Assembly: GCF_011806455.1 (NCBI RefSeq) | Contig: NZ_JAATOT010000005.1 | Location: 186,001-250,000 of the forward strand | Origin: Celeribacter sp. HF31 | Lineage (GTDB): Bacteria > Pseudomonadota > Alphaproteobacteria > Rhodobacterales > Rhodobacteraceae | DNA length: 64,000 bases | Direction: 5' to 3' | Shown: one piece after another, positions 12,818 through 32,571 of the stretch | Layout: each line of letters opens with the position of its first letter | How positions within the stretch are numbered: position 1 is the first letter of the stretch | Translations under genes and position numbers: made by a program | The notes under the pieces: generated by a model | What the model was told of the DNA's origin: nothing | Seen by the model: only the letters and a program-made list of their open reading frames with translations | The model's database searches: none

Positions 12818-12846
12818 TTGACCATAGTGTCGCAGGGGGCTAAACC
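12818..12846 (+). promoter_or_regulatory. Candidate promoter of the nuo operon
   Basis: TTGACC at 12818-12823, a 17-bp spacer, then TAAACC at 12841-12846. Transcription would start near 12853, about 75 nt upstream of nuoA. The -35 is good (5/6) and the -10 weak, as is usual in GC-rich alphaproteobacteria. The 287-bp gap before nuoA contains no gene. Confidence 0.4.
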
Positions 12847-12926
12847 ACGACAAGCTAGCAAAGCAGCGCGCCTGCGATCGCCTGACATCCGTCCCGCGAA
12901 GAAGCGCGCCTATCAAGGAGCCGCTC

Positions 12927-13292
12927 GTGGAAGTCTTGCTTCGGGAATATCTCCCTATCGTCATTTTCCTCGGCCTCGCCATCGTGCTGGGTCTTGTGTT
13001 CATCTTCGCAGCTCTCATCCTCGCCGTTCGCAATCCCGACCCTGAGAAAGTGTCGGCCTATGAGTGCGGATTCAACGCATTCGACGACGCGCGGATGAAA
13101 TTCGACGTGCGGTTCTACCTCGTGTCGATCCTGTTCATCATTTTCGATCTCGAAATCGCTTTCCTGTTTCCCTGGGCCGTCGCGTTCAAGGACATCGGGA
13201 TCGTGGGCTTCTGGTCGATGATGGTGTTCCTCGCTGTGCTGACCGTGGGCTTTGCCTATGAATGGAAGAAAGGGGCGCTGGAATGGGCGTGA
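12927..13292 (+). CDS. nuoA: NADH-quinone oxidoreductase subunit A
   Basis: A 121-residue membrane subunit of complex I with three transmembrane helices (about residues 8-30, 62-84 and 89-110). The conserved loop [21 protein letters not shown] contributes to the quinone-site region. Translation starts at GTG, with AAGGAG six bases upstream. It is the first gene of the long nuo unit and overlaps nuoB by 10 bp. Confidence 0.95.
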
Positions 13293-13816
13293 CGACCGGA
13301 GCCAACACCGCAGGTGTGGACAAGGAGCATTCCACGCAGGTTCTCAACAAGGAACTGCAGGACAAGGGCTTTTTGCTGACCTCCACGGAAGACATCATCA
13401 ACTGGGCGCGCACCGGGTCGCTGCACTGGATGACCTTTGGTCTCGCCTGCTGCGCTGTCGAGATGATGCATACGTCGATGCCGCGTTACGACCTTGAGCG
13501 GTACGGTACGGCCCCGCGCGCCTCTCCGCGCCAGTCCGACCTGATGATCGTCGCGGGCACGCTGACCAATAAAATGGCGCCGGCGCTGCGCAAGGTTTAC
13601 GACCAGATGCCGGAGCCGCGTTACGTGATCTCCATGGGGTCCTGCGCCAACGGTGGTGGCTATTATCACTACAGCTATTCGGTGGTGCGCGGCTGTGACC
13701 GCATCGTGCCTGTGGACGTCTATGTCCCCGGCTGCCCGCCGACCGCAGAGGCGCTGATGTACGGCATTCTGCAGCTGCAACGCAAAATCCGCCGCACCGG
13801 CACGATCGCCCGCTAA
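13283..13816 (+). CDS. nuoB: NADH-quinone oxidoreductase subunit B
   Basis: A 177-residue peripheral-arm subunit that holds cluster N2, the last [4Fe-4S] cluster before ubiquinone. The ligands are the tandem C56-C57 (GLACCAVEM), C121 (GSCANGG) and C151 (PGCPPT). I chose the ATG at 13283 rather than 13262: an AGGGG stretch lies about 8 bases upstream of it, and the N-terminus then resembles other Rhodobacteraceae NuoB proteins. The gene overlaps the end of nuoA. Confidence 0.95.
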
Positions 13817-13828
13817 GGAGAGCATGAG

Positions 13829-14428
13829 ATGAGCGAAGCCCTCCAAGAACTTGCTGCGCATATCGAGATCAAGCGTCCGAACGATGTGTTGAAAACCGAG
13901 GTGGCTTACGGTGAGCTGACCGTCACGGTCACCTCCGCAGGCATCGTCGATTTCGTCGAGTTTCTGAAGACCGACAGCACCTGTAAATTCTCCTCTCTGG
14001 TGGACATCACGGCGGTCGATCATCCGAGCCGCGATCAGCGGTTCGATGTGGTCTATCACTTCCTGTCGATGTACCAGAACCAGCGTATCCGCGTCATTGC
14101 GTCGGTGCGCGAAGAGGAAACCATCCCGTCGATCATCGCCGTCCACCCCTCCGCGGGCTGGTTCGAACGTGAGACTTTCGACATGTTCGGGATCATTTTC
14201 TCCGGTCACCCGGACCTGCGGCGCCTGCTGACGGATTACGGTTTCCGTGGCTACCCGCTGCGCAAGGATTTCCCGGCGACGGGCTACACCGAAGTGCGCT
14301 ATGACGAAGAGCTGAAGCGCGTCGTCTACGAGCCGGTGAGCCTGGTGCAGGAATACCGCCAGTTCGATAACCTTTCCCCGTGGGAAGGCGCGAAATACAT
14401 CCTTCCCGGCGACGAGAAGGGAGCCTGA
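13829..14428 (+). CDS. nuoC: NADH-quinone oxidoreductase subunit C
   Basis: A 199-residue 30-kDa subunit of the peripheral arm. It carries the family motif [20 protein letters not shown], then [14 protein letters not shown]. It is separate from nuoD, unlike the NuoCD fusion of enterobacteria. Translation starts at an ATG with TAAGGAGA upstream, 12 bp after nuoB. Between it and nuoD lies an unrelated sulfotransferase gene. Confidence 0.95.
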
Positions 14429-14429
14429 T

Positions 14430-15326
14430 GTGAGCGGCGATCCGGCCATCATGATCTGCGTTGGCGCGACCAAAGCGGGCACCAGCTCGCTTTATCGCTA
14501 TTTGCACGATCACCCGGATTGCCACCTGCGCTCGATCAAGGAATTGCATTATTTCGACACGGTCGAGAACAACGACTACGCGTTTCAATTCGACGTTTTC
14601 TCGCGGCTGCGCGCGGATTTGGTCCGGCGCCAGGACATTGCGCGGAGCAACGCCAATCTTTGGAAAGTCACCAATCTCGAACGCCAGATCATGGATGTCG
14701 ATGAAATGGTGCGCATTCTGGAGCTGGGCGAAGAGGGGGTCTCGGACTATCTCTTCTACCTGCTGGACGGGATTGGCGACAAGAAGCTCGCGGGCGACAT
14801 AACGCCGGGCTACGGGTTGCTCTCCGAGGACCGGCTGCGCGACATGGCACATATGGCGCCGGACGTGCGGTTCGTGTTCATGATGCGCGATCCGGTGGAC
14901 CGGCTCTGGTCGCATGTGCGGATGCAGGCCTCGCGCCAGCGCCGCCCCGGCGAAGAGGTCGCGGTCAAGGCCAAGCGGATCATGAATCGTGTGGTCAATC
15001 GCGATCTGGAAAAACACATTGCGCCGCGTGGCGACTACGAAGGCATCGTGGAAAAGCTCAAACGCGCGGTGCCCGAAGACAAGCTTTTGGTGGGCTTCAC
15101 CGAGGATCTTTTGACGGGCGAAGGGCTTCAGAGCCTCTGCGCCTTTCTGGGGATCGCGGCCAAGCCCGTGGAAAAAGAACCGCACTCCCATAAGGGCGTG
15201 AAACTGCAACTGAGTGACAAGCAACGGCATGAGGCGGCGCGCTTTCTGGCCCCGCAGTATGCCTATGTGGAAAAGACCTTTGGCGAGCTGCCCGCGCGGT
15301 GGCAAGCGAATATGGCGAGGATCTGA
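14430..15326 (+). CDS. PAPS-dependent sulfotransferase family protein inside the nuo operon
   Basis: A 298-residue cytosolic sulfotransferase-fold protein. The 5'-phosphosulfate loop is GATKAGTSSLYRYL (residues 12-25, K15 the expected PAPS contact), and the 3'-phosphate motif is FMMRDPVDRLWSH (about 149-161). The family moves sulfate from PAPS to a hydroxyl or amine of a carbohydrate, lipid or small molecule. It begins at GTG one base after the nuoC stop, with AAGGGA upstream, and its stop abuts the nuoD start, so it must be co-transcribed with nuo. Nothing known links sulfotransfer to complex I; the acceptor is unknown. Confidence 0.82.
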   Translation: MSGDPAIMICVGATKAGTSSLYRYLHDHPDCHLRSIKELHYFDTVENNDYAFQFDVFSRLRADLVRRQDIARSNANLWKVTNLERQIMDVDEMVRILELGEEGVSDYLFYLLDGIGDKKLAGDITPGYGLLSEDRLRDMAHMAPDVRFVFMMRDPVDRLWSHVRMQASRQRRPGEEVAVKAKRIMNRVVNRDLEKHIAPRGDYEGIVEKLKRAVPEDKLLVGFTEDLLTGEGLQSLCAFLGIAAKPVEKEPHSHKGVKLQLSDKQRHEAARFLAPQYAYVEKTFGELPARWQANMARI

Positions 15327-16571
15327 ATGATGGACGGCGACATCCGGCAAAACACCTATGACGATGGGTCGCATGACGCGACGGACGGTGAACAGAAGAT
15401 CCGGAATTTCAACATCAACTTCGGGCCCCAGCACCCTGCGGCCCACGGTGTGTTGCGGATGGTTCTGGAGCTGGACGGCGAGATCGTGGAACGGGCCGAC
15501 CCGCATATCGGGCTGTTGCACCGCGGCACCGAAAAGCTGATGGAAAACCGCACCTATCTGCAAAACCTGCCGTATCTCGACCGCCTCGATTACGTGGCGC
15601 CGATGAACCAGGAACATGCCTGGTGTCTGGCGATCGAACGTCTGGCCGGTGTCGAAGTGCCGCGCCGCGCGTCTTTGATCCGCGTGCTCTATTCCGAGAT
15701 CGGCCGTGTGCTGAACCACCTCCTGAACGTCACCACCGGCGCGATGGACGTGGGCGCTTTGACGCCGCCGCTTTGGGGCTTTGAAGAGCGTGAAAAGCTC
15801 ATGATCTTCTACGAGCGCGCTTGCGGTGCCCGTCTGCACTCCGCCTATTTCCGCCCGGGTGGCGTCCATCAGGACCTGCCGCCGGAGCTGATAGACGATA
15901 TCGAGGCCTGGGCCGACGCTTTCCCGAAGGTTCTCGACGACATTCACTACCTGATTTCCGACAACCGCATCTTCAAACAGCGGACTGTCGACATCGGTCT
16001 GATCACCGAACAGGAAGCGCTCGACTGGGGCTTCTCCGGCGTGATGGTGCGGGGCTCCGGCATGGCCTGGGACCTGCGTCGCAGCCAGCCTTATGAGTGC
16101 TACGACGAGTTCGATTTCCAGATCCCCGTCGGCACCAATGGCGACTGCTACGACCGCTACATGGTGCGGATGCAGGAGATGACCGAGGCGACGAAGATCA
16201 TCAAACAATGTGTGGCCAAGCTGCGTGAACCGGAAAATCAGGGCGATGTTCTGGCCCGTGGCAAACTCACACCGCCGAAGCGCAAGGATATGAAGACCTC
16301 GATGGAGGCGCTTATCCACCACTTCAAACTCTACACCGAAGGGTTCAAACTGCCCGAGGGTGAGGTCTACGCCGCAGTCGAAGCGCCGAAGGGCGAGTTT
16401 GGCGTCTACCTCAATTCGGACGGCTCGAACAAACCCTACCGCGCGAAACTGCGCGCGCCGGGCTACCTTCACTTGCAGGCGATGGATCACATGGCGAAAG
16501 GTCACCAGCTGGCCGACGTCTCCGCCCTCATCGCCACCATGGACATCGTTTTCGGGGAGGTCGACCGTTGA
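15327..16571 (+). CDS. nuoD: NADH-quinone oxidoreductase subunit D
   Basis: A 414-residue 49-kDa subunit, evolved from the large subunit of [NiFe] hydrogenases, forming much of the ubiquinone pocket with NuoB. Visible motifs are [14 protein letters not shown] near the N-terminus, [29 protein letters not shown] and the C-terminal [10 protein letters not shown]. The ATG follows the sulfotransferase stop directly; a second ATG one codon later is an alternative. The last bases overlap the start of the small lipoprotein gene. Confidence 0.96.
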
Positions 16572-17026
16572 CGACCATCACGATCTCTCGGTCAGGTGTT
16601 GCTGCGGGTATCATGCTGTGCATGTTGGCGGGCTGTGTAGAGGATACCTCTGTGCCCCGTGAAACATATACTCTGAACCGAGCGGTTCCTCAGCCTGCCG
16701 CCGGGACAATACCTGAGCGTGAGCCTTGGCAATTGTGCAAGTTACCAGAGGACCTCTGTCGGAAGGCGGTTGCGCTACGGTACGAGAACAATGTTGCTCC
16801 CGAGGGAACGCGTGAGCTTGTAGTGGCGCTGGAAGAGGCGAACATAGAAGCCTACAAGACCTGTGAACGGCCCATGAATATGTCACGTGTGAATGCATCT
16901 CCGAAAGGTGGCATGAAGCTCGTGCATACTGGCTTCAGCCAAGGAGCCACAGGGATTTCGATTGCTTTTGCTAATGAAACAGATTGCGCTGGGCCACGCC
17001 CCGGTGGAACTTTTGGAATAAGGTAA
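16568..17026 (+). CDS. Small predicted lipoprotein between nuoD and nuoE
   Basis: A 152-residue product of unknown family. The N-terminus is a lipoprotein signal peptide: a short basic-polar start, a hydrophobic core ([10 protein letters not shown]) and lipobox LAGC with C23. The mature part has three further cysteines (57, 63 and about 97) plus one near the end. It starts at TTG, the only reasonable start before the lipobox, overlapping the nuoD stop by 4 bp. Base composition is less GC-rich than nuoD and nuoE. A lipoprotein here would sit on the periplasmic face, the opposite side from the complex I peripheral arm, so its place in the operon is notable but unexplained. Confidence 0.7.
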
Positions 17027-17035
17027 GGACGTTCT

Positions 17036-18238
17036 ATGCTACGCCGTCTCTATCACGAACAACCCGCCTCTTTCGAATTCACGCCCGCGAACCTCGCCTG
17101 GGCTGAGGGGCAGATCGCGAAATATCCCGAAGGGCGTCAGCAATCGGCGGTTATCCCGCTGTTGTGGCGCGCGCAAGAGCAAGAGGGCTGGCTCACCAAA
17201 CCGGCCATCGAATATATCGCCGACATGCTGGGCATGGCCGATATTCGCGTGCTTGAGGTCGCGACCTTCTACTTCATGTTCCAACTGCAACCTGTTGGGT
17301 CTGTTGCGCATATTCAGGTTTGCGGCACAACGACCTGCATGATTTGCGGCTCGGGCGACATCATTTCGGTCTGCAAAGAGAAAATCGCGCCGACGCAGCA
17401 CACGCTGTCGGCGGATGGCAAGTTTTCCTGGGAAGAGGTCGAGTGCCTTGGTGCTTGCGCCAACGCGCCGATGGCTCAGATCGGCAAGGACTATTACGAA
17501 GACCTCACGGCTGAGAATTTCTCCAAGCTTCTGGACGATATGGCCGCAGGCACTGTGCCGGTGCCGGGCTCGCAACAGGGGCGCTATTCGTCGGAGCCCG
17601 CCGGTGGGCCGAATGTGCTGGCCGACTACAAAGGCACGGGCGCGCAGTATAATGGCTCCGTGCAGATCGCCATGGACGTCGGTGACACGCTCAAGCGCAT
17701 CGACGGCACCGAAGTGCCGCTTTTGACGCCTTGGATTTCCAAAGGCGCGGGGCATGGTGGCGCGGGCAAATCCGTGCCGAAACCGGCGCCGACGCCGAAA
17801 TCCGCCGTGCAACAGGCGGCAGAAAAGAAAGCCTCGGACAAGCTCGAAGCCAAACCTGCGGCGAACACGCCCGCGTCGGACACCGGCGTGACCAAACAGC
17901 AAGCTGATGCCAAATCCAAGGCCCAGCCGGTCTCCAAAGCCGAACCCGTCGAAGGTGAGGTCGCGGAGAAGAAACCGCGCACCATGAAAGCGCCGCGCAA
18001 AGCGGGTGCCGATGATCTGAAAAAGCTCAAAGGCGTGGGTCCGAAGCTTGAGCAGACGCTCAACGAGCTGGGCTTTTGGCATTTCGATCAGGTGGCGAAA
18101 TGGACGGCGGAAGAGATCGCCTGGGTCGATGCGCGGCTGAAGTTCAAAGGCCGGATCCAACGCGATGGCTGGATTGACCAGGCCAAAATCCTCGCCGAAG
18201 GCGGAGAGACCGAATTTTCGAAACGTGCGAAATACTGA
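17036..18238 (+). CDS. nuoE: NADH-quinone oxidoreductase subunit E with C-terminal helix-hairpin-helix extension
   Basis: A 400-residue version of the 24-kDa subunit (about 165-240 in most bacteria). Residues 1-160 are the thioredoxin-like domain with cluster N1a ligands C96, C101, C137 and C141. After about residue 225 comes a Lys/Ala/Pro-rich linker, and residues 325-400 form a helix-hairpin-helix-type domain ([14 protein letters not shown], then [12 protein letters not shown] and EFSKRAK). Extended NuoE proteins are known in Rhodobacteraceae. The tail is strikingly similar to that of the next gene's product. The ATG follows AAGGTAAGGAC. Confidence 0.94.
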
Positions 18239-18309
18239 GACGAAAAGCTCGAGAGGCCAAAGAAATCGGCCCGAATGAGTGATCAACAGGGATATTTCAG
18301 GAGTACCAC

Positions 18310-19026
18310 ATGACGGACGCACAGCAGGGCAAAACGCCCAAGATCGGATTGATCGCCGCGATTTGCGGTGTGATCGCCTTTTTGGCACTGATGTGGATCG
18401 CGGGCTATTCGACGGCGGCCTCGGTGATCGTTGGTGTTCTCGTGGCGCTTTTGGTCGCGATCCTGCTGTGGATCGGTTGGTACGAAGAGGCGACGGAGGC
18501 AAATGTTGGCCACCCCGAAGCCGATGTCAGCGCCTCTGGCCTGATGGCAACTTCGGGCATTGGCGATGAGCCGGTGTCGGCGGCGGATGAGATTGCGATT
18601 GAGCCGCACGCAGCGGACACCCGCGAGGTGCGCTCGAAAGCTGCGGCGGCGACGCCGGAGGCCCATCCGGTCGATGACGCACCGGTCGAGCCGGTTGCGG
18701 AACCGGTCGAAGAGGTCGAAGAAAAAACGGAGGCCGCCCCGGTTGCTTTCGCGTCTGTCCCGGACGCCGCGGTCGCGGCAGTGCCCGACGATCTGAAGTC
18801 GATCAAAGGCGTCGGGCCGAAAATCGAAGTGCAGCTGCACGCGCGGGGGATCACCACCTTTGCACAGGTGGCGGCGCTGAGCGCAGATGAGATCGAAGCC
18901 CTGGGCGCGGCCCTCAAAGGCACCTCGGCGGCGCAGCTGACGAAATGGGCCGAACAGGCCAAAATCCTCGCCGCGGGCGGGGACACGGAATTCTCGAAAC
19001 GCGTCAAGGATGGCGATGTTTACTGA
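18310..19026 (+). CDS. Two-helix membrane protein with C-terminal helix-hairpin-helix domain
   Basis: A 238-residue protein. Two transmembrane helices are at about residues 11-31 and 36-57, then an acidic Ala/Pro/Glu-rich linker (60-155), then a helix-hairpin-helix domain from about 161 (DDLKSIKGVGPKIE, QVAALSADEI, WAEQAKILAAGGDTEFSKR). This last domain matches the tail of the NuoE encoded just upstream almost segment for segment. Such domains usually bind DNA non-specifically, but here one copy is tethered to the membrane and the other to complex I, so a protein-protein or assembly role is at least as likely. The family is unnamed to me. Confidence 0.75.
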   Translation: MTDAQQGKTPKIGLIAAICGVIAFLALMWIAGYSTAASVIVGVLVALLVAILLWIGWYEEATEANVGHPEADVSASGLMATSGIGDEPVSAADEIAIEPHAADTREVRSKAAAATPEAHPVDDAPVEPVAEPVEEVEEKTEAAPVAFASVPDAAVAAVPDDLKSIKGVGPKIEVQLHARGITTFAQVAALSADEIEALGAALKGTSAAQLTKWAEQAKILAAGGDTEFSKRVKDGDVY

Positions 19027-19037
19027 GGAGTAAGGAA

Positions 19038-19259
19038 ATGGTGCCTGACAAGGACCAGCATTTGGCGAAAAAGGCGCGCATGGTCGCCGTCGTGATCGCC
19101 GTGACGATGTTGGTCTGGTTGGGGGCTCAATGGTTGGGTGGGAAACTCGGATTGCCGTCGCGCTACGCGTTTCTCCTCGATCTTGCCGCTTTGGCCGGGT
19201 TCGTCTGGTCGTTTGTGGTGATGTATCAGATTTGGCGTGACACGCGCCGGAAAGACTGA
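19038..19259 (+). CDS. Small two-helix membrane protein, DUF5337-like
   Basis: A 73-residue protein with two predicted transmembrane helices (about 14-33 and 43-64) and basic ends (HLAKKAR and WRDTRRKD). It resembles the small DUF5337 proteins that I recall from rhodobacterial nuo clusters. The ATG at 19038 follows GAGGAGTAAGGAA, a strong ribosome site, 11 bp after the preceding stop; nuoF begins 13 bp later. Function unknown; size and position suggest an accessory or assembly protein of complex I. Confidence 0.65.
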
Positions 19260-19272
19260 AGGGACAAGAGCG

Positions 19273-20571
19273 ATGCTCAAGGATCAGGATCGGATCTTTA
19301 CCAACCTCTACGGCATGAATGACCGTAGCCTTGCGGGCGCCAAAAAGCGCGGGCATTGGGATGGCACGGCGGGCATTCTCGCCAATGGACGCGACTGGAT
19401 CATCGACCAGATGAAGGCTTCGGGCCTGCGTGGTCGTGGTGGCGCGGGCTTCCCGACGGGTCTCAAATGGTCCTTCATGCCGAAAGAAAGCGATGGTCGC
19501 CCGGCGTACCTCGTGATCAACGCCGACGAATCCGAGCCCGCGACCTGTAAGGACCGCGAAATCATGCGCCACGACCCGCACACGCTGGTCGAAGGCGCGC
19601 TGATTGCCGGCTTCGCGATGAACGCGGTGGCCGCCTATATCTACATTCGCGGCGAATATATCCGCGAGAAAGAGGCGCTTCAGGCCGCGATCGACGAGGC
19701 ATATGACGCCGGTCTCATTGGCCGCAACGCCTGCAAATCCGGCTATGATTTCGACATCTACCTGCACCATGGGGCAGGGGCCTATATCTGTGGCGAGGAA
19801 ACCGCCCTCATCGAGTCTCTCGAAGGCAAAAAGGGCATGCCCCGGATGAAACCGCCCTTCCCGGCGGGCGCAGGTCTTTACGGTTGCCCGACCACGGTGA
19901 ACAACGTCGAATCCATCGCCGTCGTGCCGACGATCCTGCGGCGCGGTGCGGAATGGTTCGCCTCCTTTGGCCGCCCGAACAACGCGGGCACCAAACTCAT
20001 GGCGCTGACCGGCCACGTCAACACGCCCTGCGTGTTCGAGGAAGAAATGTCGATGTCCGTGCGCGAGATCATCGAGAAACACGGCGGCGGCATTCGTGGC
20101 GGCTGGGACAATCTGAAAGCCATCATTCCGGGCGGGGCGTCCTGTCCTGTTCTGCCGAAAGAAGCGCTGGAAGACGCGATTTTCGACTTCGACTGGATGC
20201 GGGAGAACAAGTCTTCCTTTGGCACCGGCTGTATGATCGTGATGGACAATTCCGTCGATGTCGTCAAAGCGGTCTGGCGTCTGTCGGCGTTTTTCAAACA
20301 CGAAAGCTGCGGTCAATGTACGCCGTGCCGCGAAGGCACCGGCTGGATGATGCGCGTGATGGACCGTCTGGTGACGGGTGACGCGGAAATCGAAGAGATC
20401 GACATGTTGCTCGATGTGACGAAACAGGTCGAAGGCCATACCATCTGTGCGCTGGGGGATGCGGCGGCTTGGCCGATCCAGGGTCTGATCCGTCACTTCC
20501 GCGATGACATCGAAGAGCGCATCAAAATCAAGAAAACCGGTCGCCTCTCTGCGGCGTTTGCGGCGGAGTGA
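19273..20571 (+). CDS. nuoF: NADH-quinone oxidoreductase subunit F
   Basis: A 432-residue 51-kDa subunit with FMN, NADH site and cluster N3. The nucleotide-binding stretches are [14 protein letters not shown] and [19 protein letters not shown]; the N3 ligands lie in [12 protein letters not shown] plus a downstream cysteine (HTICALGD). It takes hydride from NADH and passes electrons into the iron-sulfur chain, working with NuoE. The ATG at 19273 was chosen on alignment with the family start [11 protein letters not shown]. Confidence 0.96.
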
Positions 20572-20573
20572 GA

Positions 20574-20762
20574 ATGTGGCGTTTGGTCGGATTAAAATGT
20601 CCTTGTTGCGGTCACGTTCCGTATTTCGCATTCGCGAAATGCCGGGTCTGTGGCTATGCGACACTGTCATTCTCGTCCGATCCAAAGCGTTGGATGCTCT
20701 TTCTTGGAATCGTGGTTCTGTTTCTTGTGGCCATGGGGCTATTTTCAGGGAGGGATTTTTAG
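20574..20762 (+). CDS. Zinc-ribbon membrane microprotein
   Basis: A 62-residue protein with two zinc knuckles near the N-terminus (C9-P-C-C12 and C23-R-V-C26), then one transmembrane helix at about 40-59 (MLFLGIVVLFLVAMGLF). The knuckle layout recalls the N-terminus of DUF983 proteins but the chain is much shorter. It starts 2 bp after the nuoF stop (a GTG 6 bases earlier is possible), and its stop codon abuts the start of the DUF3291 gene. GC content is noticeably lower than in nuoF. Function unknown. Confidence 0.6.
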   Translation: MWRLVGLKCPCCGHVPYFAFAKCRVCGYATLSFSSDPKRWMLFLGIVVLFLVAMGLFSGRDF

Positions 20763-21248
20763 ATGTTCCTTGCTGAACTCAACATCGGGCGGCTTGTGGC
20801 CGAACCCGGGGATGCGCGCGTGGCCGAGTTCATGGGCGCGCTCGACAAGATCAACGGCCTGGGCAAACGCATGCCGGGGTTCGTGTGGATGGCCGAGGGC
20901 TCGGGCGAGCCGGGAACAGGCAATACCGAAAACAACATCGGTGACGATCCGAAATTCGTCGCCAATCTCACCGTGTGGGAAGACGTTGAAAGCCTTGAGC
21001 ATTTCGTTTTCAACACGGTGCACAAGAAATTCTACGACCGTCGCGCGGAGTGGTTCGAGCTGATGGCCGACCAGCATTTCGTGATGTGGTACGTGGAACC
21101 CGGGCACAAGCCCACCTTGGACGAGGCGCTCGAACGTCTTGCCTATAAAGAAAAACATGGGGACAGCGATCAGGCCTTTGGCTGGTCGTACATCAAAGAG
21201 GCCAAGCTTTTCCGCGAGAAAAGCTGTCGGCCCGTTGCTGCGGAGTAG
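20763..21248 (+). CDS. DUF3291 family protein
   Basis: A 161-residue soluble protein with the DUF3291 look: MFLAELNIGRL at the start, GFVWM, LTVWEDVESLEHFVFNTVH and WYVEPGHKPTLDEALERL. The fold expected is a ferredoxin-like dimeric barrel, as in antibiotic-monooxygenase/EthD relatives, but the family has no settled function. The start immediately follows the stop of the zinc-ribbon gene, so the two are coupled within the nuo unit. Confidence 0.75.
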   Translation: MFLAELNIGRLVAEPGDARVAEFMGALDKINGLGKRMPGFVWMAEGSGEPGTGNTENNIGDDPKFVANLTVWEDVESLEHFVFNTVHKKFYDRRAEWFELMADQHFVMWYVEPGHKPTLDEALERLAYKEKHGDSDQAFGWSYIKEAKLFREKSCRPVAAE

Positions 21249-21252
21249 TCCC

Positions 21253-21675
21253 ATGACATTGACCAAACATATCGCCCCCCCAATTGCCCTCGCTCTTGCC
21301 TTGACCGCCGGTGCTGCCGCTGCGGCGGAGCTGCCGCCACTGCGCGAGGTGCAAGAGATCGACCGGAACATGCTCTGGGCTGGCCTTGCCGTCGAAGTGT
21401 CGGACGAATGCCCGACCATCGAGGTGCGCAAGCTCAAAGGTGTTTCCTTCCTCTGGGGCCTGAAAAACAAGGCGTCCTCGATGGGCTACACGGATGACGA
21501 AATCCGCGCCTATGTCGAAAGCGACGATGAAGAAGCCCGCATTCGCCGTCTCGGCGAGGCCTATGTGCGGCAAGCCGGGTTCGATCCGAAAACCCCCGAA
21601 GGTCTCTGTGCCTTTGGCGAGGCGGAGATTGCACGCGGGTCGATCATCGGCTCTTTCCTGAGGAGCACGAAATGA
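21253..21675 (+). CDS. Secreted DUF5333-like protein A
   Basis: A 140-residue exported protein. The signal peptide is residues 1-24 (hydrophobic LALALTAGAAAAAE, cleavage after AAA). The mature domain is helical and has two cysteines, one early (DECPTIEVRK) and one late (GLCAFGEAEIARGSIIGSFL). It matches the next gene's product in layout and in the C-terminal motif, and resembles DUF5333 proteins of Rhodobacteraceae as I remember them. It overlaps the next gene by 4 bp. The two cysteines would probably form a disulfide in the periplasm. Confidence 0.65.
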   Translation: MTLTKHIAPPIALALALTAGAAAAAELPPLREVQEIDRNMLWAGLAVEVSDECPTIEVRKLKGVSFLWGLKNKASSMGYTDDEIRAYVESDDEEARIRRLGEAYVRQAGFDPKTPEGLCAFGEAEIARGSIIGSFLRSTK

Positions 21676-22067: not shown

Positions 22068-22073
22068 TGCAGA

Positions 22074-24092: not shown

Positions 24093-24511
24093 TGGCGCTG
24101 AGCGGGGCACATATGGCCGCTCTCGGGCTGGTGGCGGTGGGTTTGTCCGGCTGTGACAAGACCTGCTGCGCCGCGTCCGAGGCGGATGTGTCGCGCGCGG
24201 CGGCCTCCGAGTATCTCGGGGTCGAGACCCGTCTTTTGGACGGCGATCTGGTGAATTTTCTCGTCTCCGCCAAGGGAGATGGGGCGAAAACGAACGTGGT
24301 GGCCTATGCCGATTGTGCGGCCGCCCAATATGCGCTGATCCGGGGTTTCGGGTTTGCGCGACATGTGCGGACAAATGTCGCACAAGAGGCTGGAATTTGG
24401 CGCGCGGATGCTGTTTACACCATCTCGCCAGCGCTCCCCGAAGGTTTGCGCAAGCTCGACGCAGAAGTCGTCGTCGCAAACTGTCGGGACAACGGAATAC
24501 CGACGGTGTGA
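24092..24511 (+). CDS. Small predicted lipoprotein between nuoG and nuoH
   Basis: A 139-residue product with a lipoprotein signal: hydrophobic AALGLVAVGL and lipobox LSGC at about residues 18-21, followed by a CDKTCCA cluster with further cysteines. A cysteine also occurs mid-chain (ADCAAA) and near the C-terminus (ANCRDNG). No family is recognised. The ATG overlaps the nuoG stop (TGATG), and nuoH starts 11 bp after its stop. It is the second lipoprotein gene in this nuo unit; the two are not obviously related in sequence. Confidence 0.65.
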   Translation: MALSGAHMAALGLVAVGLSGCDKTCCAASEADVSRAAASEYLGVETRLLDGDLVNFLVSAKGDGAKTNVVAYADCAAAQYALIRGFGFARHVRTNVAQEAGIWRADAVYTISPALPEGLRKLDAEVVVANCRDNGIPTV

Positions 24512-24522
24512 AAGGCTGAAAA

Positions 24523-25560
24523 ATGGTCGAATTTTTCACGACAACTAATCTGGGGATCTTCCTGCTCACCCTTGGGCAGATTTTGTTGGTCCTCGTGCCA
24601 CTCTTCGTGGCGCTCGCCTTCCTGATGTATGGCGACCGGAAAATCTGGGCGGCTGTCCAGATGCGCAAAGGCCCCAACATCGTTGGCATTTTCGGCCTCT
24701 TGCAGTCCTTCGCGGACTTTATCAAATACCTTGTGAAAGAGGTGGTTGTGCCGGCAGGGGCGGATAAATTCGTCTTTTACCTCGCGCCGATGATCACCTT
24801 TATCACGGCTGCTATCGCCTGGGCGGTGATCCCATGGAACGATGGCTGGGTGATCTCCGACATCAACATCGCGATCCTCTATATCTTCGCTGTCTCGTCC
24901 CTTGAGGTCTACGGCGTGATCATGGGCGGTTGGGCGTCGAACTCGAAATATCCTTTCCTCGGTTCGCTCCGTTCCGCAGCCCAGATGATTTCCTACGAGG
25001 TTTCGATCGGCCTCATCATCATCGGCGTGGTTCTGTCCTCGGGCTCCATGAACTTTGGCGACATCGTCGCAGCGCAAGACGGCAAGGGCATCTTTAGCTG
25101 GTACTGGCTGCCGCATTTCCCGATGGTCTTCCTGTTCTTTGTGTCTGCCTTGGCGGAAACCAACCGCCCGCCGTTCGATTTGCCCGAGGCAGAATCGGAA
25201 CTCGTGGCCGGTTACCAAGTGGAATATTCCTCGACGCCGTTCCTTCTCTTCATGATGGGCGAGCTGATGGCCGTCGTTTTGATGTGCGCGCTGGTGTCGA
25301 TCCTGTTCTTCGGCGGCTGGAACTCCCCGGTCGAATTCCTGCCCGACGGCATCCTGTGGCTGATCCTCAAGATGCTGATCGCGTTCTTCGTCTTCTCGAT
25401 GGTGAAAGCCATCGTGCCGCGTTACCGCTACGACCAGTTGATGCGCATCGGTTGGAAAGTCTTCCTGCCGCTGTCGCTGGGCTGGGTCGTTTTGGTCGCG
25501 TTCTTTGCTCAATACGGTGCGTTCTGGGGAACCTATGCGCGCTGGACCGTTGGAGGCTAA
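24523..25560 (+). CDS. nuoH: NADH-quinone oxidoreductase subunit H
   Basis: A 345-residue membrane subunit with eight or so transmembrane helices, forming the ubiquinone entrance at the junction of the two arms. Conserved segments are [48 protein letters not shown] and [21 protein letters not shown], the last holding the acidic loop near the quinone site. It starts 11 bp after the lipoprotein gene; nuoI follows 3 bp after its stop. Confidence 0.97.
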
Positions 25561-25563
25561 CTG

Positions 25564-26055
25564 ATGGCTCTCGATTACACCCGCGCCGCCAAGTATTTCC
25601 TGATGATGGACATCTGGGCCGGCTTTAAAATCGGTCTGCGGTATTTCTTCGCGCCCAAGGCGACGATCAACTACCCGCATGAAAAAGGGCCTCTGTCCCC
25701 GCGTTTCCGGGGCGAGCACGCGCTGCGTCGTTACCCGAACGGCGAGGAACGCTGCATTGCCTGTAAGCTTTGCGAAGCGATCTGCCCGGCGCAGGCCATC
25801 ACCATTGATGCCGAACCGCGGATCGACGGCTCGCGCCGCACCACGCGCTACGACATCGACATGACGAAATGCATCTACTGTGGCTTCTGTCAGGAAGCCT
25901 GTCCGGTGGACGCCATCGTCGAAGGCCCGAATTTCGAATTCTCCACCGAAACCCGCGAAGAGCTGTTCTACGACAAGGAGAAACTCCTTGCGAATGGCGA
26001 AATGTGGGAGGCGGAGATCGCCCGCAACCTCGAATTGGATGCACCGTACCGATGA
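25564..26055 (+). CDS. nuoI: NADH-quinone oxidoreductase subunit I
   Basis: A 163-residue ferredoxin-like subunit with clusters N6a and N6b. The two motifs are C64-C67-C70-C74 ([12 protein letters not shown]) and C103-C106-C109-C113 ([12 protein letters not shown]). It hands electrons to N2 in NuoB. The gene overlaps the start of the CMD-like gene by 4 bp. Confidence 0.97.
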
Positions 26056-26459
26056 GTGATTTCACCAAGCTTTTCGAACAGATGATGGAGCAGAGCCACA
26101 AAATGGCCTCTGCTTGGAATCCGGCGATGGAGACCTTTCAGGTGCCGGCGTTCGACAAGCTTTGGCCGACCATGTCCAAGGATTGGATGGAGATGGTCTG
26201 GGGGACGACCTTCAACAAGGACGGGCTCGATGCGAAAACACGTCTTCTCGTGGTGGTCGCCGGGCTGACCGTGCTTGGCGCGCAGGCCGAAGCCCCGTTC
26301 AAACTCACCGTGCGCCATGCTCTTGAGGCAGGTGCCACCGAGAAAGAGATCGCGGAAGTGATTTATCAGATGTCGATGATGGGCGGTGTGCCCGCCATGA
26401 CGAAGGCACTTGAGCTGGCTCAGGCCGTCTTCAACGAAAAGCAGGAGGGCAGTGAATGA
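26052..26459 (+). CDS. Carboxymuconolactone decarboxylase-like (CMD/AhpD-type) protein
   Basis: A 135-residue all-helical protein. The segment [27 protein letters not shown], then [26 protein letters not shown], is the classic CMD core pattern. AhpD relatives use a CxxC pair for peroxidase activity; I see no cysteine in this core, so a redox role like AhpD is unlikely and the function is open. It overlaps nuoI and nuoJ by 4 bp each, which implies translational coupling to complex I subunits. Confidence 0.75.
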
Positions 26460-27070
26460 CTGTCGCAGATTACGCATTTTACCTTTTCGCCATCGTGATG
26501 CTGGTGGCCGGGGTGTTCACGGTTGTGTCGCGCAACCCGGTGCACTCCGTGCTCTGGCTGATCGTCACCTTCCTGACCGCCTCCGGGCTGTTCGTCCTGT
26601 TGGGCGCGGAATTCGTCGCGATGCTTTTGGTCATCGTCTACGTCGGCGCGGTGATGGTGCTGTTCCTCTTCGTCGTCATGATGCTCGACGTCGATTTCGC
26701 GGAGCTCAAGGCGGGCATGGCGAAATACCTGCCCTTTGCGCTTTTGATCGGTGTGGTGCTGTTGCTTCAGATGGGCTTTGCCTTTGGCGACTGGCACTCG
26801 GCTGAGGGCGCCGAGGCGCTGCGCCGCTCCGTGACGCCGGATGCCGCCGAGGTGCACAACACCGCCGCTCTGGGCCAGCTCATGTATGACGATTACCTGA
26901 TGCTCTTCCAACTGGCGGGTCTGATCCTTTTGGTCGCCATGATCGGGGCCATCGTCCTGACGCTGCGCCACCGCTCTGACGTCAAGCGCCAGAACGTGCT
27001 GAAACAGATGTATCGCAAGCCCGAAGAGTCTTTCGAAATGAAAGACATCAAACCGGGGCAGGGGCTTTAA
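26456..27070 (+). CDS. nuoJ: NADH-quinone oxidoreductase subunit J
   Basis: A 204-residue membrane subunit with five transmembrane helices. The conserved third-helix region, [25 protein letters not shown], contains the pi-bulge helix that moves during turnover. An intervening hydrophilic loop is rather long, and the C-terminal tail is polar. The gene starts within the CMD-like gene; 89 bp without a gene separate it from nuoK. Confidence 0.95.
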
Positions 27071-27159
27071 GCCTGACGTGAATGACCGGGGCGAGGTCTT
27101 CCCGCGCCCCGAGGACAAAGGCCGCAAAAGCGGCGAGAGAGAAAGAACTGAGGGACGAC

Positions 27160-27465
27160 ATGGTCGGACTTGAACATTACCTGACAGTGGCCGCGGCGCT
27201 GTTTGTCATCGGCATCTTCGGGCTCTTTTTGAACCGGAAGAACATCATCATCATCCTGATGTCGATCGAGATGATCCTGCTGTCGGTCAATATCAACCTT
27301 GTCGCCTTCTCCTCCTTCCTGGGGGATCTTACGGGACAGATTTTCACGATGCTTGTGCTGACCGTGGCCGCCGCCGAGGCCGCCATCGGGTTGGCCATCC
27401 TCGTGAGCTTCTTCCGCAACCGCGGCACGATCGACGTCGAAGACGTCAACGTGATGAAAGGGTAA
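27160..27465 (+). CDS. nuoK: NADH-quinone oxidoreductase subunit K
   Basis: A 101-residue, three-helix membrane subunit, exactly the usual family length with the ATG at 27160 (GAGGGA upstream). Two glutamates in membrane helices belong to the central proton path: one in [10 protein letters not shown], one in [13 protein letters not shown] longer in-frame start upstream would add a basic, non-conserved extension and is rejected. Confidence 0.96.
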
Positions 27466-27471
27466 GGGCAA

Positions 27472-29589
27472 ATGGAAACGATCATCCTCTTCGCGCCGCT
27501 GGTCGGTGCCCTCGTCGGCGGCTTTGGCTGGCGTGTGATCGGCGAGAAGCCCGCGCAATATTTGACCACGGGTCTTTTGTTTCTGGCCGCCATTCTGTCG
27601 TGGATCGTGTTCCTCACTTTTGATGGCACGACCGAGCATGTGACGATCCTGCGCTGGATCGAAAGCGGGTCTCTGTCCGTCGATTGGGGCATCCGTGTGG
27701 ACCGTTTGACGACGATCATGCTGATCGTGGTGAACACGGTTTCTGCGCTCGTGCACCTCTACTCTCTGGGCTACATGGCGCATGACGAGAACTTCGGCGA
27801 CGACGAGCCCTACCGCGCGCGCTTCTTTGCCTATCTCTCTCTCTTCACCTTCACCATGTTGATGCTGGTGACCTCCGACAACCTGATCCAGATGTTCTTT
27901 GGCTGGGAAGGCGTGGGTCTGGCCTCCTATCTGCTGATCGGGTTCTACATCAAGAAACCTTCCGCCGGTGCCGCTTCGATGAAGGCCTTCATCGTCAACC
28001 GTGTCGGTGACTTCGGCTTTATCCTCGGCATGGCCGGTCTGTTCCTTTTGACCGACAGCGTGCGCTTTGACGATGTGTTTGCCGCAGGCCCGATGCTGGC
28101 GGATACCTCGCTGCATTTCCTCTGGACCGAATGGAACGCCGCCAACCTTCTGGCTTTCCTTTTGTTCGTCGGTGCGATGGGCAAATCGGCGCAGCTTTTC
28201 CTGCACACCTGGTTGCCGGACGCGATGGAAGGCCCGACGCCTGTGTCGGCGCTCATCCACGCCGCGACCATGGTGACTGCGGGCGTCTTCCTCGTCTGCC
28301 GCATGTCGCCGATCTTTGAATATGCGCCGCAGACCCAGATGTTTGTCATCTACATTGGTGCGACCACGGCGTTTTTCGCCGCCACCGTCGGTCTGGTGCA
28401 AAACGATATCAAACGCGTGATCGCCTATTCGACCTGTTCGCAGCTCGGCTACATGTTCGTGGCCGCAGGCGCGGGCGCTTACGGCCCGGCGATGTTCCAC
28501 CTTTTGACGCACGCCTTCTTCAAAGCCATGCTCTTTTTGGGCGCGGGCTCGGTCATCACCGCGATGCACCACGAACAGGACATGCGCAACTACGGGAACT
28601 TGCGTAAAAAGATCCCCTTCACCTTCTGGATGATGATCATCGGCACGCTGGCGATCACCGGCGTTGGCATCCCGCTCACGCATTTCGGGTTTGCGGGCTT
28701 CCTGTCGAAAGACGCAATCGTCGAGAGTGCCTATGCCTCCGGTGTCGGCTATGCCTTCTGGATGCTGGTCATCGCGGCGCTGTTCACGTCCTTCTATTCG
28801 TGGCGCCTGATTTTCATGACCTTCTTCGGCAAGGCGCGCGGCGATCATCATGCGCATGATCATGCGCACGAAAGCCCGCTTGTCATGCTGGTGCCGATCG
28901 GGACGCTGTCCTTGGGTGCGATCTTTGGCGGCATGATCTGGTACAACAGCTTCTTCGGCGATCATGATAAATTTACTGAGTTTTTCGCCCTGCCGCATCA
29001 CGCGGAGGTCGAGATGGCTGAGGGTCATGGTGAGGGTTCGGGCGAAGCTGCTGCGGACACCCATGCGGTGGCGGCTGATACCGTCGCTGAGACCGCCACT
29101 GACACCCACGGCGAAGAGGCTACGCACGGCATGGCTCCGCAAGGCGCGATCTTCCTCGCCGCTGACAACACCGTTCTGGACGACGCCCACCACGCGCCGA
29201 CATGGGTCAAGGTGTCGCCCTTCATCGCCATGGTGCTTGGCTTCCTGATCGCCCTTTGGTTCTACATCTGGAAACCGGAAACGCCCGCGAAACTGGCGAA
29301 AAGCCAGCCCGTCGCCTATCAGTTTCTGCTGAACAAATGGTATTTCGACGAGCTCTATAACGCGATCTTCGTGCGTCCCGTTCTGGCCCTTGGCCGCTTC
29401 CTCTGGAAACGCGGCGACGAAGGCACCATTGATGGCGGGATCAACGGTCTTGCGCTTGGCATCGTGCCCTTCTTCACCCGCCTTGCTGGCCGGGCGCAGT
29501 CGGGCTTCATCTTCACTTACGCTTTTAGCATGGTTCTGGGGATTGTGATCTTGGTAACCTGGATGTCGATCGGCGGGGGGGCACACTGA
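27472..29589 (+). CDS. nuoL: NADH-quinone oxidoreductase subunit L
   Basis: A 705-residue Mrp-antiporter-type proton pump subunit at the far end of the membrane arm, with the C-terminal lateral helix. Core motifs include [42 protein letters not shown] and a key lysine/histidine region near [15 protein letters not shown]. It is longer than the E. coli protein (613). The extra length is mostly a His-rich stretch at about residues 453-466 ([10 protein letters not shown]) and an acidic His/Thr/Ala-rich stretch at about 505-557. It overlaps nuoM by 1 bp. Confidence 0.96.
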
Positions 29590-31121
29590 TGGATAACGTG
29601 CTTTCTATCGTCACCTTCCTTCCGACAATGGCCGCCCTCGTGCTCGCGCTGATCCTGCGCGGCGAGGATGCGGTGGCTCAACTCAACGCAAAACGTGTGG
29701 CGCTCTTGGCGACCGTGGTCACCTTTGTGATCTCGCTCTTCATCCTCTTTGGCTTTGATGCCGACAACACCGGGTTCCAGATGGTCGAAGAGGCCGACTG
29801 GATCATGGGGCTCAAGTACAAGATGGGCGTCGATGGCATTTCGGTGCTCTTCGTGATGCTCACCACCGCGCTCATGCCGCTGGTGATCTGGTCCGCATGG
29901 GATGTGAAAACCCGCGTCAAGGAATACATGATCGCTTTCCTCCTGTTGGAAACGCTCATGCTCGGCGTGTTCTGTGCGCTCGATCTGATGCTCTTCTACC
30001 TCTTCTTCGAGGCAGGCCTCATTCCGATGTTCCTGATCATCGGCATCTGGGGCGGCAAGAACCGCATCTACGCCGCGTTCAAGTTCTTCCTCTACACCTT
30101 CCTGGGCTCCGTCCTGATGCTCGTCGCCATGGTCGCCATGTATATCGACGCGGGCACCACCGACATCGTGCAGCTCATGGCACATGACTTCTCGTCCGAG
30201 ACCATTCAGGTGCTGGGCTTCAACATCATCGGCGGGTTCCAGACCTTGGCCTTCCTCGCCTTCTTCGCCTCTTTCGCGGTGAAGATGCCGATGTGGCCGG
30301 TGCACACTTGGTTGCCCGACGCCCACGTTCAGGCGCCGACCGCCGGTTCTGTGGTTCTGGCTGCGATTTTGCTGAAAATGGGCGGCTACGGCTTCCTGCG
30401 CTTCTCGCTTCCGATGTTCCCGGTGGCCTCCGCCAACCTCGCCGATTTCATCATGGTGCTGTCGGTCATCGCCATTGTCTACGCGTCGCTCGTCGCCCTG
30501 GTGCAGAGCGATATGAAAAAGCTGATCGCCTACTCCTCGGTCGCCCACATGGGCTACGTCACGGCGGGTATCTTTACCTTCAATCAACAGGGTCTCGATG
30601 GCGCGATCTTCCAGATGATCTCCCACGGGTTCGTCTCCGGCGCGCTCTTCCTTTGTGTGGGCGTGATCTACGACCGGATGCACACCCGTGAGATCGACGC
30701 CTTCGGCGGCCTCGTGAACAAGATGCCGGCCTACGCGCTCGTCTTCATGTTCTTCACCATGGCGAACATCGGCCTTCCGGGCACCTCCGGCTTCATCGGA
30801 GAATTCCTGACGATCCTCGGTATGTTCCAGGCCAACACCTGGATCGCTCTGGTCGCCGCCTCCGGTGTGATCTTCTCCGCCTGTTACGCGCTGTGGCTCT
30901 ACCGCCGCGTCGTTCTGGGCGATCTGATCAAGGAAAGCCTCAAGACGATCAAGGACATGACCCCGCGCGAGAAATGGATCTTTGCACCGCTCGTGGCGAT
31001 GACGCTCCTCTTGGGGGTCTACCCGGCGCTGGTGCTCGATCTGATCGGACCGTCTGTGACCGCGCTTCTCGACAACTATCACGCTGCTCTGCCGATGATG
31101 GCAGACGTCGCCACCCACTAA
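29589..31121 (+). CDS. nuoM: NADH-quinone oxidoreductase subunit M
   Basis: A 510-residue antiporter-like proton-pumping subunit with about 14 transmembrane helices. Visible motifs are [22 protein letters not shown] (with the conserved glutamate), [20 protein letters not shown] and the [12 protein letters not shown] helix. It sits between NuoL and NuoN in the membrane arm. The ATG shares a base with the nuoL stop. Confidence 0.96.
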
Positions 31122-31134
31122 AGGACACCGGGAT

Positions 31135-32571
31135 ATGACCTCTACTGACTTTTCCATCGTCCTGCCGGAAGTTCTCCTGGCCATCTACGGCATGGCGGCG
31201 CTCCTGTTCGCCGTCTACACCGGCAAGGACAAACTCGCGGCTCTGATCACCTGGGTGACCGCCGCGGTCTTCGTCATCATCGCGCTGATGATCGGCCTGG
31301 GCGGCGAGGGCTCTCGTGTCGCGTTCGGCGGCATGTTCATCGACGATGCGTTTTCGCGCTTCGGCAAAGTGGGCGTGCTTCTCGCGGGTGCTGCCGTGCT
31401 CGTGATGTCTTATGACTTCCTGGACAAACGCGGCTTCGCCAAATTCGAATACCCGATCCTCGTGCTGTTCTCGACGATCGGCATGATGGTCATGGTGTCT
31501 GCGGGCGACCTGATGGCGCTCTATCTCGGCCTCGAACTGATGTCCCTGGCGCTCTACGTCATCGCCTCCTTCCGTCGCGACAGTGTGAAATCCACCGAAG
31601 CGGGCCTCAAGTATTTCGTGCTTGGCTCCCTGTCCTCTGGCTTGCTGCTCTATGGCTCGTCCTTGGTCTACGGCTTCTCCGGCACCACCTCTTTCGCGGG
31701 CATCATCTCCGTCGTGCAAGATGACGTGCCTGTGGGCGTGCTCTTTGGCCTGGTCTTCGTGATGACCGGCCTCGCGTTCAAGGTCTCCGCCGTGCCGTTC
31801 CACATGTGGACCCCGGACGTCTACGAAGGCGCACCGACGCCGACCACCGCCTTCTTTGCCACCGCGCCGAAACTTGCCGCCATGGGCCTCTTCGCCCGCG
31901 TGCTGCATGACGCCTTCGGCGGCATCGTCGGCGACTGGCAACAGGTTCTGGCCGTCATCGCCGTGGCCTCCATGTTCTTGGGCGCCATCGCCGGGATCGG
32001 TCAGAAGAACATCAAACGTCTGATGGCCTATTCCTCGATCTCCCACATGGGGTTCGCGCTCATGGGCTTGGCGGCTGGCAATGCCGAGGGCGTGCAATCC
32101 GCGATGATCTACATGGCGATCTATGTGACGATGAACATCGGCACCTTCGCCTTCATCATGACGATGGAGCGGGACGGCAAACCTGTCACCGACATCTCCG
32201 CGCTGAACCTCTACTGGCGCAATTCTCCGACGAAAGCGCTGGCCCTTTTGGTCCTGATGTTCTCGCTCGCGGGTGTGCCGCCGATGCTCGGTTTCTTCGG
32301 GAAGCTGGCGGTGCTTCAGGCCGCTTGGGGCGCAGGTCTCGTCTATCTCGCCGTCTTCGGTGTGATCGCCTCCGTGATCGGCGCGTTCTACTACCTGCGC
32401 ATCGTCTACTACATGTACTTCGGCGCCGAGACCGAGCCGCTCGACAAGGTGTCGAGCCCCGTGACCTTCGCGCTTCTGACCCTCTCCGCTCTGATCATGC
32501 TTGTCGGCATCGTCAACATGTTCGGCGTCGAGGGTATGGCGGCGCTTGCGGCGGATGCGCTGGTCAAGTGA
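31135..32571 (+). CDS. nuoN: NADH-quinone oxidoreductase subunit N
   Basis: A 478-residue antiporter-like subunit, last of the complex I set. Typical segments are [61 protein letters not shown] and [18 protein letters not shown]. Its stop codon overlaps the GTG start of birA, so transcription evidently continues into the next three genes. Confidence 0.96.

Follow-up and report, generated by a model that had tools for sequence, protein, structure and literature searches.

The 64,000-nucleotide window analysed here (Celeribacter sp. HF31, Rhodobacteraceae, contig NZ_JAATOT010000005.1, positions 186,001 to 250,000 of the forward strand) contains a complete nuoA-nuoN cluster, in which the 14 core genes of complex I are accompanied by ten further open reading frames (ORFs), all of them interleaved between nuoC and nuoJ. 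Comparison with related operons makes it likely that the ten were added to the nuo operon of the Rhodobacteraceae by accretion and do not form a set of complex I subunits. The extras split into a fixed tier, formed by DUF5337, DUF5333, lipoprotein 2 and a CMD-fold protein, and a cargo, and the status of stable subunit is unlikely for five of them. The association of the fixed tier with the nuo operon is real and family-wide. Four of the ten extras (sulfotransferase, DUF3291, lipoprotein 1 and a zinc-ribbon microprotein) are patchy or unique, and the gene for an HhH membrane protein is intermediate.

The nuo cluster of Celeribacter sp. HF31 and its additional genes

The features of the cluster are listed below, junctions being named after the flanking nuo genes.

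12927-32571, + strand, nuoA-nuoN cluster (ORFs, blastp core matches)
14430-15326, + strand, sulfotransferase (Sulfotransfer_3, Pfam 2.6e-10), C/D junction, variable tier
16568-17026, + strand, lipoprotein 1, D/E junction, lipobox LAGC, G+C content at third codon positions (GC3) 0.53, orphan
17036-18238, + strand, nuoE with C-terminal HhH tail, 400 amino acids (aa), NCBIfam PRK12373 1e-177
18310-19026, + strand, HhH membrane protein, protein-O-like, E/F junction, HHH_5 4.4e-7
19038-19259, + strand, DUF5337, E/F junction, PF17272 2.2e-33, two predicted transmembrane (TM) segments, fixed tier
20574-20762, + strand, zinc-ribbon microprotein with one TM segment, F/G junction, GC3 0.53, orphan
20763-21248, + strand, DUF3291, F/G junction, PF11695 2.1e-43, variable tier
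21253-21675, + strand, DUF5333 copy a, F/G junction, PF17267 5.4e-38, fixed tier
21672-22067, + strand, DUF5333 copy b, tandem paralogue, PF17267 4e-25
24092-24511, + strand, lipoprotein 2, G/H junction, lipobox Cys C21, fixed tier
26052-26459, + strand, CMD-fold protein, I/J junction, PF02627 6.2e-18, fixed tier

The first-pass annotation of this DNA had reported ten non-nuo genes between nuoC and nuoJ, and all ten ORFs are indeed found at the expected places; its remark that most of them overlap or abut the subunit genes is borne out by a spacing of -4 to +13 nucleotides (nt), the sole exception being the 71 nt found 5' of the HhH gene. Seven of the ten lie above the Pfam cut-off (sulfotransferase, HhH, DUF3291, DUF5337, DUF5333 twice and CMD), the scores of DUF5337, DUF5333, DUF3291 and CMD exceeding the gathering cut-off of their families; the two lipoproteins match no Pfam family, and the zinc-ribbon microprotein gives a sub-threshold Pfam match only. 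In terms of location, the three membrane proteins that had been announced are retained, TM segments being predicted by a hydropathy rule in the HhH, DUF5337 and zinc-ribbon proteins (the CMD protein was flagged too, which is taken as false), but the three periplasmic proteins become four that look exported, namely the two lipoproteins, with their lipoboxes, and the two DUF5333 proteins, copy b by inspection only.

A consensus scan of 12500-32400 places the sole promoter-like match of the + strand at 12722-12750, 5' of nuoA. Promoter-like matches on both strands amount to 3 versus a shuffle mean of 5.7, thus showing no excess, and terminator-like matches exceed the shuffles (29 versus 18.6, standard deviation 4.0), several of them lying on the + strand inside the cluster; consensus matches of either kind are not evidence of function. 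Judged by gene packing, it is plausible that the extras are co-expressed with the nuo genes on a single uninterrupted transcript. Upstream of the cluster, an Imm11-family immunity-like protein is encoded at 11929-12639.

A fixed tier and a variable cargo

The family set comprises 80 named loci around nuoG (the best 80 of at least 589 confirmed ones) and the HF31 locus, that is 81 loci, while the outgroup is drawn from other families of the Alphaproteobacteria and numbers 36 operon loci, 34-36 of them scorable at each junction; a locus is scorable when both core genes flanking the junction are present, and HF31 is included in the counts. An enlarged set takes in 20 more family genomes, mostly picked for missing DUF5337 or lipoprotein 2 and hence biased, and a genome-wide survey covers 199 Rhodobacteraceae genera, a few of the matches in it being weak or partial. 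All 141 loci were placed on a NuoG tree, built by a quick method with the mixture off, on which changes of state were counted and compared with shuffled labels; as a count of this kind does not distinguish a gain from a loss, the direction is taken from the outgroups.

In the 81-locus set, DUF5337 lies at the E/F junction in 72 of 72 scorable family loci, CMD at I/J in 70 of 76, lipoprotein 2 at G/H in 64 of 78, and DUF5333 at F/G in 61 of 77 under label 'a' and 9 of 77 under label 'b', the two labels not being exclusive. CMD is present in 77 of 99 scorable family operons of the enlarged set. Genome-wide, NuoG is found in all 199 genera, DUF5337 in 185 (single copy save in one genome), DUF5333 in 151 and lipoprotein 2 in 146. 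Besides, the positions are kept: all 129 genomes compared (of 146) have lipoprotein 2 at most 600 nt 3' of nuoG, and DUF5337 precedes nuoG by 1.5-6.5 kb, both genes on one strand, in 115 of 117 compared genomes (of 185), the two exceptions being the genomes G449 and G430, whose operons are split at F/G. On the NuoG tree, the fixed families change state at about half the shuffled-label rate or less (CMD 5 changes against a mean of 20.1, lipoprotein 2 9 against 26.8, DUF5333 11 against 22.3, DUF5337 5 against 9.7).

Invariant Cys residues are seen in two of the fixed proteins. In lipoprotein 2, C21 (the lipobox residue), C75 and C131 are invariant in 55 rows (68 found), and C53 and C119 of DUF5333 in 54 aligned rows. 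The predicted model of DUF5333 (predicted local distance difference test, pLDDT, 90.7) gives no PDB fold match with E < 6, and that of lipoprotein 2 (pLDDT 85.7) has a best PDB fold match at E 0.037, from which no function follows. The Paracoccus lipoprotein 2 is about 250-260 aa long, with an extra N-terminal region (e.g. 12022-12798 in locus L023), versus 139 aa in HF31.

As for the variable tier, the sulfotransferase occurs at C/D in 17 of 65 scorable loci (17 of 81 operons in the enlarged set) and DUF3291 at F/G in 26 of 77 (32 of 95), with 12 and 23 tree changes versus shuffled means of 15.7 and 26.9 (ratios 0.76 and 0.85), respectively. The HhH gene, found at E/F in 46 of 72 loci (50 of 90 in the enlarged set), shows 19 changes versus 29.6 (ratio 0.64). 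Lipoprotein 1 (1 of 71 scorable loci) and the zinc-ribbon microprotein (1 of 77) are present in HF31 alone; since they are absent from the other 80 loci and have a GC3 of 0.53, the other cluster genes ranging from 0.69 to 0.85, their codon composition and distribution suggest that both are probably recent arrivals. Relatives of the sulfotransferase with less than 60% identity are found on 9 plasmid records; tblastn gave no plasmid match for lipoprotein 1, lipoprotein 2 or the zinc-ribbon microprotein, and a PHROGs search no match for five of the extras.

Across the family operons, the ten extras thus vary independently, which contradicts the earlier idea of one set. The same annotation had named free variation among close relatives as an outcome that would tell against its proposal: such variation is largely what the sulfotransferase and DUF3291 display, as do the two orphans, in that no other locus has them; it is partial for HhH, and it is not seen for DUF5337, CMD, lipoprotein 2 and DUF5333.

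Insertion sites, insert content and rates of change

In the 84 family loci besides HF31, gaps of at least 150 nt are the rule at E/F (76 of 76), F/G (79 of 81), G/H (72 of 82) and I/J (75 of 80), middling at D/E (40 of 75), C/D (34 of 67), H/I (25 of 80) and J/K (19 of 80), and rare at A/B (2 of 59), B/C (6 of 66), K/L (2 of 77), L/M (2 of 77) and M/N (0 of 75). Breaks of the operon are seen at F/G, where those of G449 and G430/L003 are split; G347 and G464 carry insertions of 8.1 kb and 12.5 kb at this junction. After the split, DUF5333 stands with the A-F half in G449 and with the G-N half in G430, and the extras therefore do not travel as one set; lipoprotein 2 and CMD are in the G-N half of both. 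As side observations, an ORF with an identical N-terminus is present in both halves of G449 (loci L170 and L171), for which a mobile element would be a guess, the split operon of G430 is represented by loci L172, L173 and L003, and the N-termini read in the G347 and G464 insertions (L174, L175) suggest transport and oxidoreductase genes, on the basis of N-termini only.

With respect to content, the predicted envelope class is the majority class in 23 of 41 insert families (9 labelled ones and 32 clusters found in at least 2 loci) versus 51 of the 239 ORFs of 50-300 aa taken as background from 400 kb of the HF31 genome (Fisher p 1.2e-5), keeping in mind that some of the clusters may be spurious ORFs and that the background stems from simple ORF picking. 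Among single insert ORFs of at least 50 aa, 39 of 102 are predicted envelope proteins. Small lipoprotein-like families recur at F/G, in 27, 14 and 8 loci, and at D/E, in 22. A derivation of these recurrent F/G and D/E families from DUF5333 or lipoprotein 2 by divergence is unsupported: the best profile probabilities are 55% over 50 columns, 53% over 94 and 38% over 24, lipoprotein 2 being the profile matched in each case; it is possible that the 8-locus F/G family, which has the 94-column match, is a diverged lipoprotein 2.

The extras evolve about 2-5 times faster than NuoG (for the fixed tier, median protein change 2.1-4.7 times). Their median dN/dS (the ratio of nonsynonymous to synonymous change) is 0.27-0.56 for the seven families versus 0.09-0.26 for the core genes, single pairs of most extras exceeding 1, and within the fixed four single pairs reach 1.86; dS is near saturation in these comparisons. 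Distances between extras track those of NuoG (rho 0.26-0.44, core 0.27-0.52), with the exception of DUF3291 (rho -0.06).

These data bear on the idea of pure hitchhiking, according to which genes that dropped into a strongly expressed essential operon were simply retained, their functions being unrelated. The variable cargo, with its sulfotransferases, methyltransferases and a GFA-family protein, the large F/G insertions of G347 and G464, and the little tree signal of DUF3291 all fit it. Hitchhiking alone nevertheless leaves unexplained that the same four families are fixed, that the inserts are biased towards envelope proteins, and that a protein of the HhH type, protein-O, resides in a photosystem (see below), so that as a full account it appears doubtful.

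Probable acquisition within the family and a possible role in biogenesis

None of the seven profile-searchable extra families is found at these junctions in the 36 outgroup loci, so that the pattern in the family exceeds chance. Almost all outgroup operons are compact, no junction having a gap of at least 150 nt in more than 2 loci (0-2). Beyond the family, the genome-wide search covered DUF5337 and lipoprotein 2, DUF5333 and CMD being judged there at operon loci: DUF5337 is above the cut-off in 5 of 289 genomes of the class and lipoprotein 2 is matched in 4 of 289, all of them Rhodobacteraceae, with two sub-cut-off partial matches of DUF5337 in other families. Within the family, the deep members L134, L135, L138 and L142 have compact operons without any extra, and intermediate operons with DUF5337, HhH or DUF3291 alone occur among the 20 added genomes.

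In this context, the fixed tier could be a family-specific set for the biogenesis or maintenance of complex I, acting transiently and absent from the mature enzyme. The set positions beside subunit genes, the retention of DUF5337 and lipoprotein 2 in most genera, the constant adjacency of lipoprotein 2 to nuoG, the invariant Cys pairs of lipoprotein 2 and DUF5333, and purifying selection all agree with such a role, as does the location of lipoprotein 2 and CMD in the G-N half of both split operons, although position alone predicts the same. However, other families and deep family members have the enzyme without these genes, 53 of the 199 NuoG-bearing genera lack lipoprotein 2 and 48 lack DUF5333, DUF5333 took different sides in the two splits, and the proteins change faster than NuoG. 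A family-specific assembly factor need not be universal, which has to be remembered when the retention of DUF5337 (185), DUF5333 (151) and lipoprotein 2 (146) is read. On balance, we regard a biogenesis set as possible but rather unlikely.

Relation to complex I subunits

The operon of Paracoccus denitrificans DSM 413 (L023) holds HhH, DUF5337, DUF5333, lipoprotein 2 and CMD, and the NuoG encoded there agrees with chain 8qby_G at every one of 659 residues. Two ORFs matching the CMD profile lie between nuoI and nuoJ of this operon, at 14246-14920. The 2.3 Å structure, obtained from another P. denitrificans strain than DSM 413, is described with the 14 core subunits plus NDUFS4, NDUFS6, NDUFA12 and CI-PIMT (PMC11522691). 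Searches of the entries 8qby, 9g83, 9g9y, 9g9z and 9gae with profiles of lipoprotein 2, DUF5337, DUF5333 and CMD, and with the HhH and lipoprotein 2 sequences of P. denitrificans, gave no matching chain, this chain test covering HhH, DUF5337, DUF5333, lipoprotein 2 and CMD. The earlier suggestion of supernumerary subunits consequently fails, in the strongest test at hand, for these five extras, which are encoded in the P. denitrificans operon and have no chain in the structure entries, and it is unlikely that they are stable complex I subunits.

One may still imagine loosely bound supernumerary subunits that are lost in detergent, in view of the small membrane and lipoprotein types among the extras and of the fact that imaging was done on purified P. 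denitrificans enzyme. Yet the further densities at 2.3 Å are assigned, in the part of PMC11522691 consulted, to CI-PIMT and to an artefactual contact with complex III, and the five extras match no chain of those entries, which leaves this possibility very improbable.

In Rhodobacter sphaeroides, transposon sequencing (Tn-seq) found the 14 nuo genes essential on LB, in a passage that does not mention the extras (PMC5513736). Our literature searches returned no published function for the extra frames of Paracoccus- or Rhodobacter-type complex I operons, protein-O in the photosystem excepted; no mention of DUF5333 was found in the literature searched, and none of DUF5337 in part of it. A second Complex1_51K match is present on HF31 contig 5, at 31017-31532 (a 524 aa frame), and possibly belongs to a formate dehydrogenase or hydrogenase subunit.

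The HhH protein, protein-O and the NuoE tail

Protein-O, of 239 aa, was described as a novel subunit of the reaction centre-light-harvesting 1 (RC-LH1) photosystem of Dinoroseobacter shibae; its gene is located between nuoE and nuoF, it ends in a domain like the C-terminal one of NuoE, and its authors, who call its function unknown, suggest that it takes part in the assembly of RC-LH1 (PMC12079452). The HF31 HhH gene likewise lies between nuoE and nuoF, and its product shares with protein-O (8YY9) a C-terminal HhH domain, preceded by a predicted two-helix membrane region that may correspond to the N-terminal hairpin of protein-O. It matches 8yy9_O at 1.5e-19 (phmmer, residues 152-238), almost all of it from the HhH domain, the hairpin region giving 6.8 bits only, with two TM segments by hydropathy; the P. 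denitrificans protein matches 8yy9_O at 2.3e-19 and 9wqv_a at 6e-16, and 9wqv_a aligns with the HF31 protein over 14-223 (2.1e-7). The sequence similarity to protein-O is nearly confined to the HhH domain, and because this domain is also present on NuoE, orthology rests on position and architecture too. The record 9wqv_a is named 'NADH:ubiquinone oxidoreductase 41 kd complex i subunit', but since no 9wqv chain is among 26 NuoG-like PDB sequences, entry 9wqv probably does not hold complex I.

An N-terminal hydrophobic region is present in 51 of 56 stand-alone HhH proteins; in 28 of these 51, P. denitrificans included, the hairpin is closed by a pair of Cys, one at each end, and this pair is absent from the HF31 copy. 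P. denitrificans is not known to be phototrophic. In HF31, 23 photosynthesis-cluster proteins gave no convincing match in the 1.59 of 3.60 Mb (44%) of the genome that were sampled, in 20 kb stretches with unsampled gaps of up to about 40 kb and no positive control, the one weak bchM match (74 aa) being probably another methyltransferase. Genes of the protein-O type are therefore probably not limited to phototrophs, and acting in RC-LH1 may be one of the uses to which a membrane factor of more general function is put.

In a scan restricted to the domain, the HhH tail is found in 63 of 76 family NuoE versus 2 of 35 outgroup NuoE. Of these 76 family loci, 40 have both the tail and a stand-alone HhH gene, 23 the tail only, 6 the stand-alone gene only and 7 neither; substitution of the HhH protein for a NuoE tail that had been lost was considered and rejected, as the 40 loci hold both. 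The HF31 tail, preceded by a linker, also gives partial sub-cut-off NCBIfam matches to L21, S2 and the phasin PhaH. In 41 operons with both, the likeness of the domains is 0.605 across NuoE and stand-alone copies, 0.604 among stand-alone copies and 0.643 among NuoE tails. Two domains encoded in one operon resemble each other slightly more (0.633) than domains of different operons do (0.605), a value reached in 0 of 2000 shuffles over these operons; the effect is small (own-partner median rank 16 of 41), genome relatedness was not removed, and it hints at a shared constraint. On this basis, the HhH domain might be a shared docking module that tethers complex I and other energy-converting complexes to a common partner, a speculation to which we give little credence; if true, the nuo operon would encode a co-localisation system instead of complex I subunits, involving RC-LH1 in phototrophs and other complexes in non-phototrophs.

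Proposed scenario

In the accretion scenario that we favour, the ancestral nuo operon would have been compact, as the outgroups suggest. Comparison shows insertions at a subset of junctions, from C/D to J/K and rarely at A/B, B/C, K/L, L/M and M/N. DUF5337, CMD, lipoprotein 2 and DUF5333, which are near-fixed at set positions, would have been added within the Rhodobacteraceae, the sulfotransferase, DUF3291, lipoprotein 1 and the zinc-ribbon protein being patchy or unique. Co-expressed and often envelope-type proteins would in this way have been gathered stepwise into a respiratory operon, their products being translated from the nuo message close to the membrane and in proportion to respiratory capacity, and presumably acting in the membrane or periplasm, some of them on other energy-converting complexes, and not as stable parts of complex I. 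The tie of one extra to a photosystem subunit makes other energy complexes a concrete candidate for an alternative site of action, and the outcome is a short list of genes for functional study.

Several observations weigh against this scenario. The deep genome G459 (L139) has DUF5333 beside nuoG without lipoprotein 2 or CMD, so that the order of gain is not clean. The sulfotransferase tracks NuoG (rho 0.31) about like the fixed families, and its 12 tree changes equal the lowest value of 500 shuffles, hence it does not shuttle freely. The envelope enrichment depends on a hydropathy rule and gene calls that are both crude, CMD being counted as TM. Maintenance of the fixed four at set sites with a median dN/dS of 0.32-0.56 also fits a complex I helper, and synteny alone cannot separate function from inheritance. 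Finally, several additional proteins are mentioned, with varying confidence, in a P. denitrificans preparation, the main text naming contaminants and PIMT (PMC8115037, as far as consulted).

Comparison with known systems

NDUFS4, NDUFS6 and NDUFA12 are accessory proteins of complex I in the Alphaproteobacteria, but they differ from the ten extras in that they are encoded on other contigs of HF31 (contigs 8, 8 and 5, respectively, the nuo operon being on contig 9). The CMD protein of HF31 matches the gamma-carboxymuconolactone decarboxylase fold (2af7, 2.4e-12). As the 49-row consensus shows no conserved Cys, it does not belong with the AhpD-type proteins, whose hallmark motif is CxxC.

The closest counterpart is the nqo cluster of P. 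denitrificans, and the extra frames of Paracoccus nqo clusters go by the name of unidentified reading frames (URF). It shares with HF31 the HhH, DUF5337, DUF5333 and lipoprotein 2 genes and, with its two CMD-profile ORFs, the CMD type, all at identical junctions. Compared with it, HF31 adds the sulfotransferase, lipoprotein 1, the zinc-ribbon microprotein, DUF3291 and the second DUF5333, and whereas the P. denitrificans NuoE (239 aa) is devoid of the HhH tail, that of HF31 keeps it.

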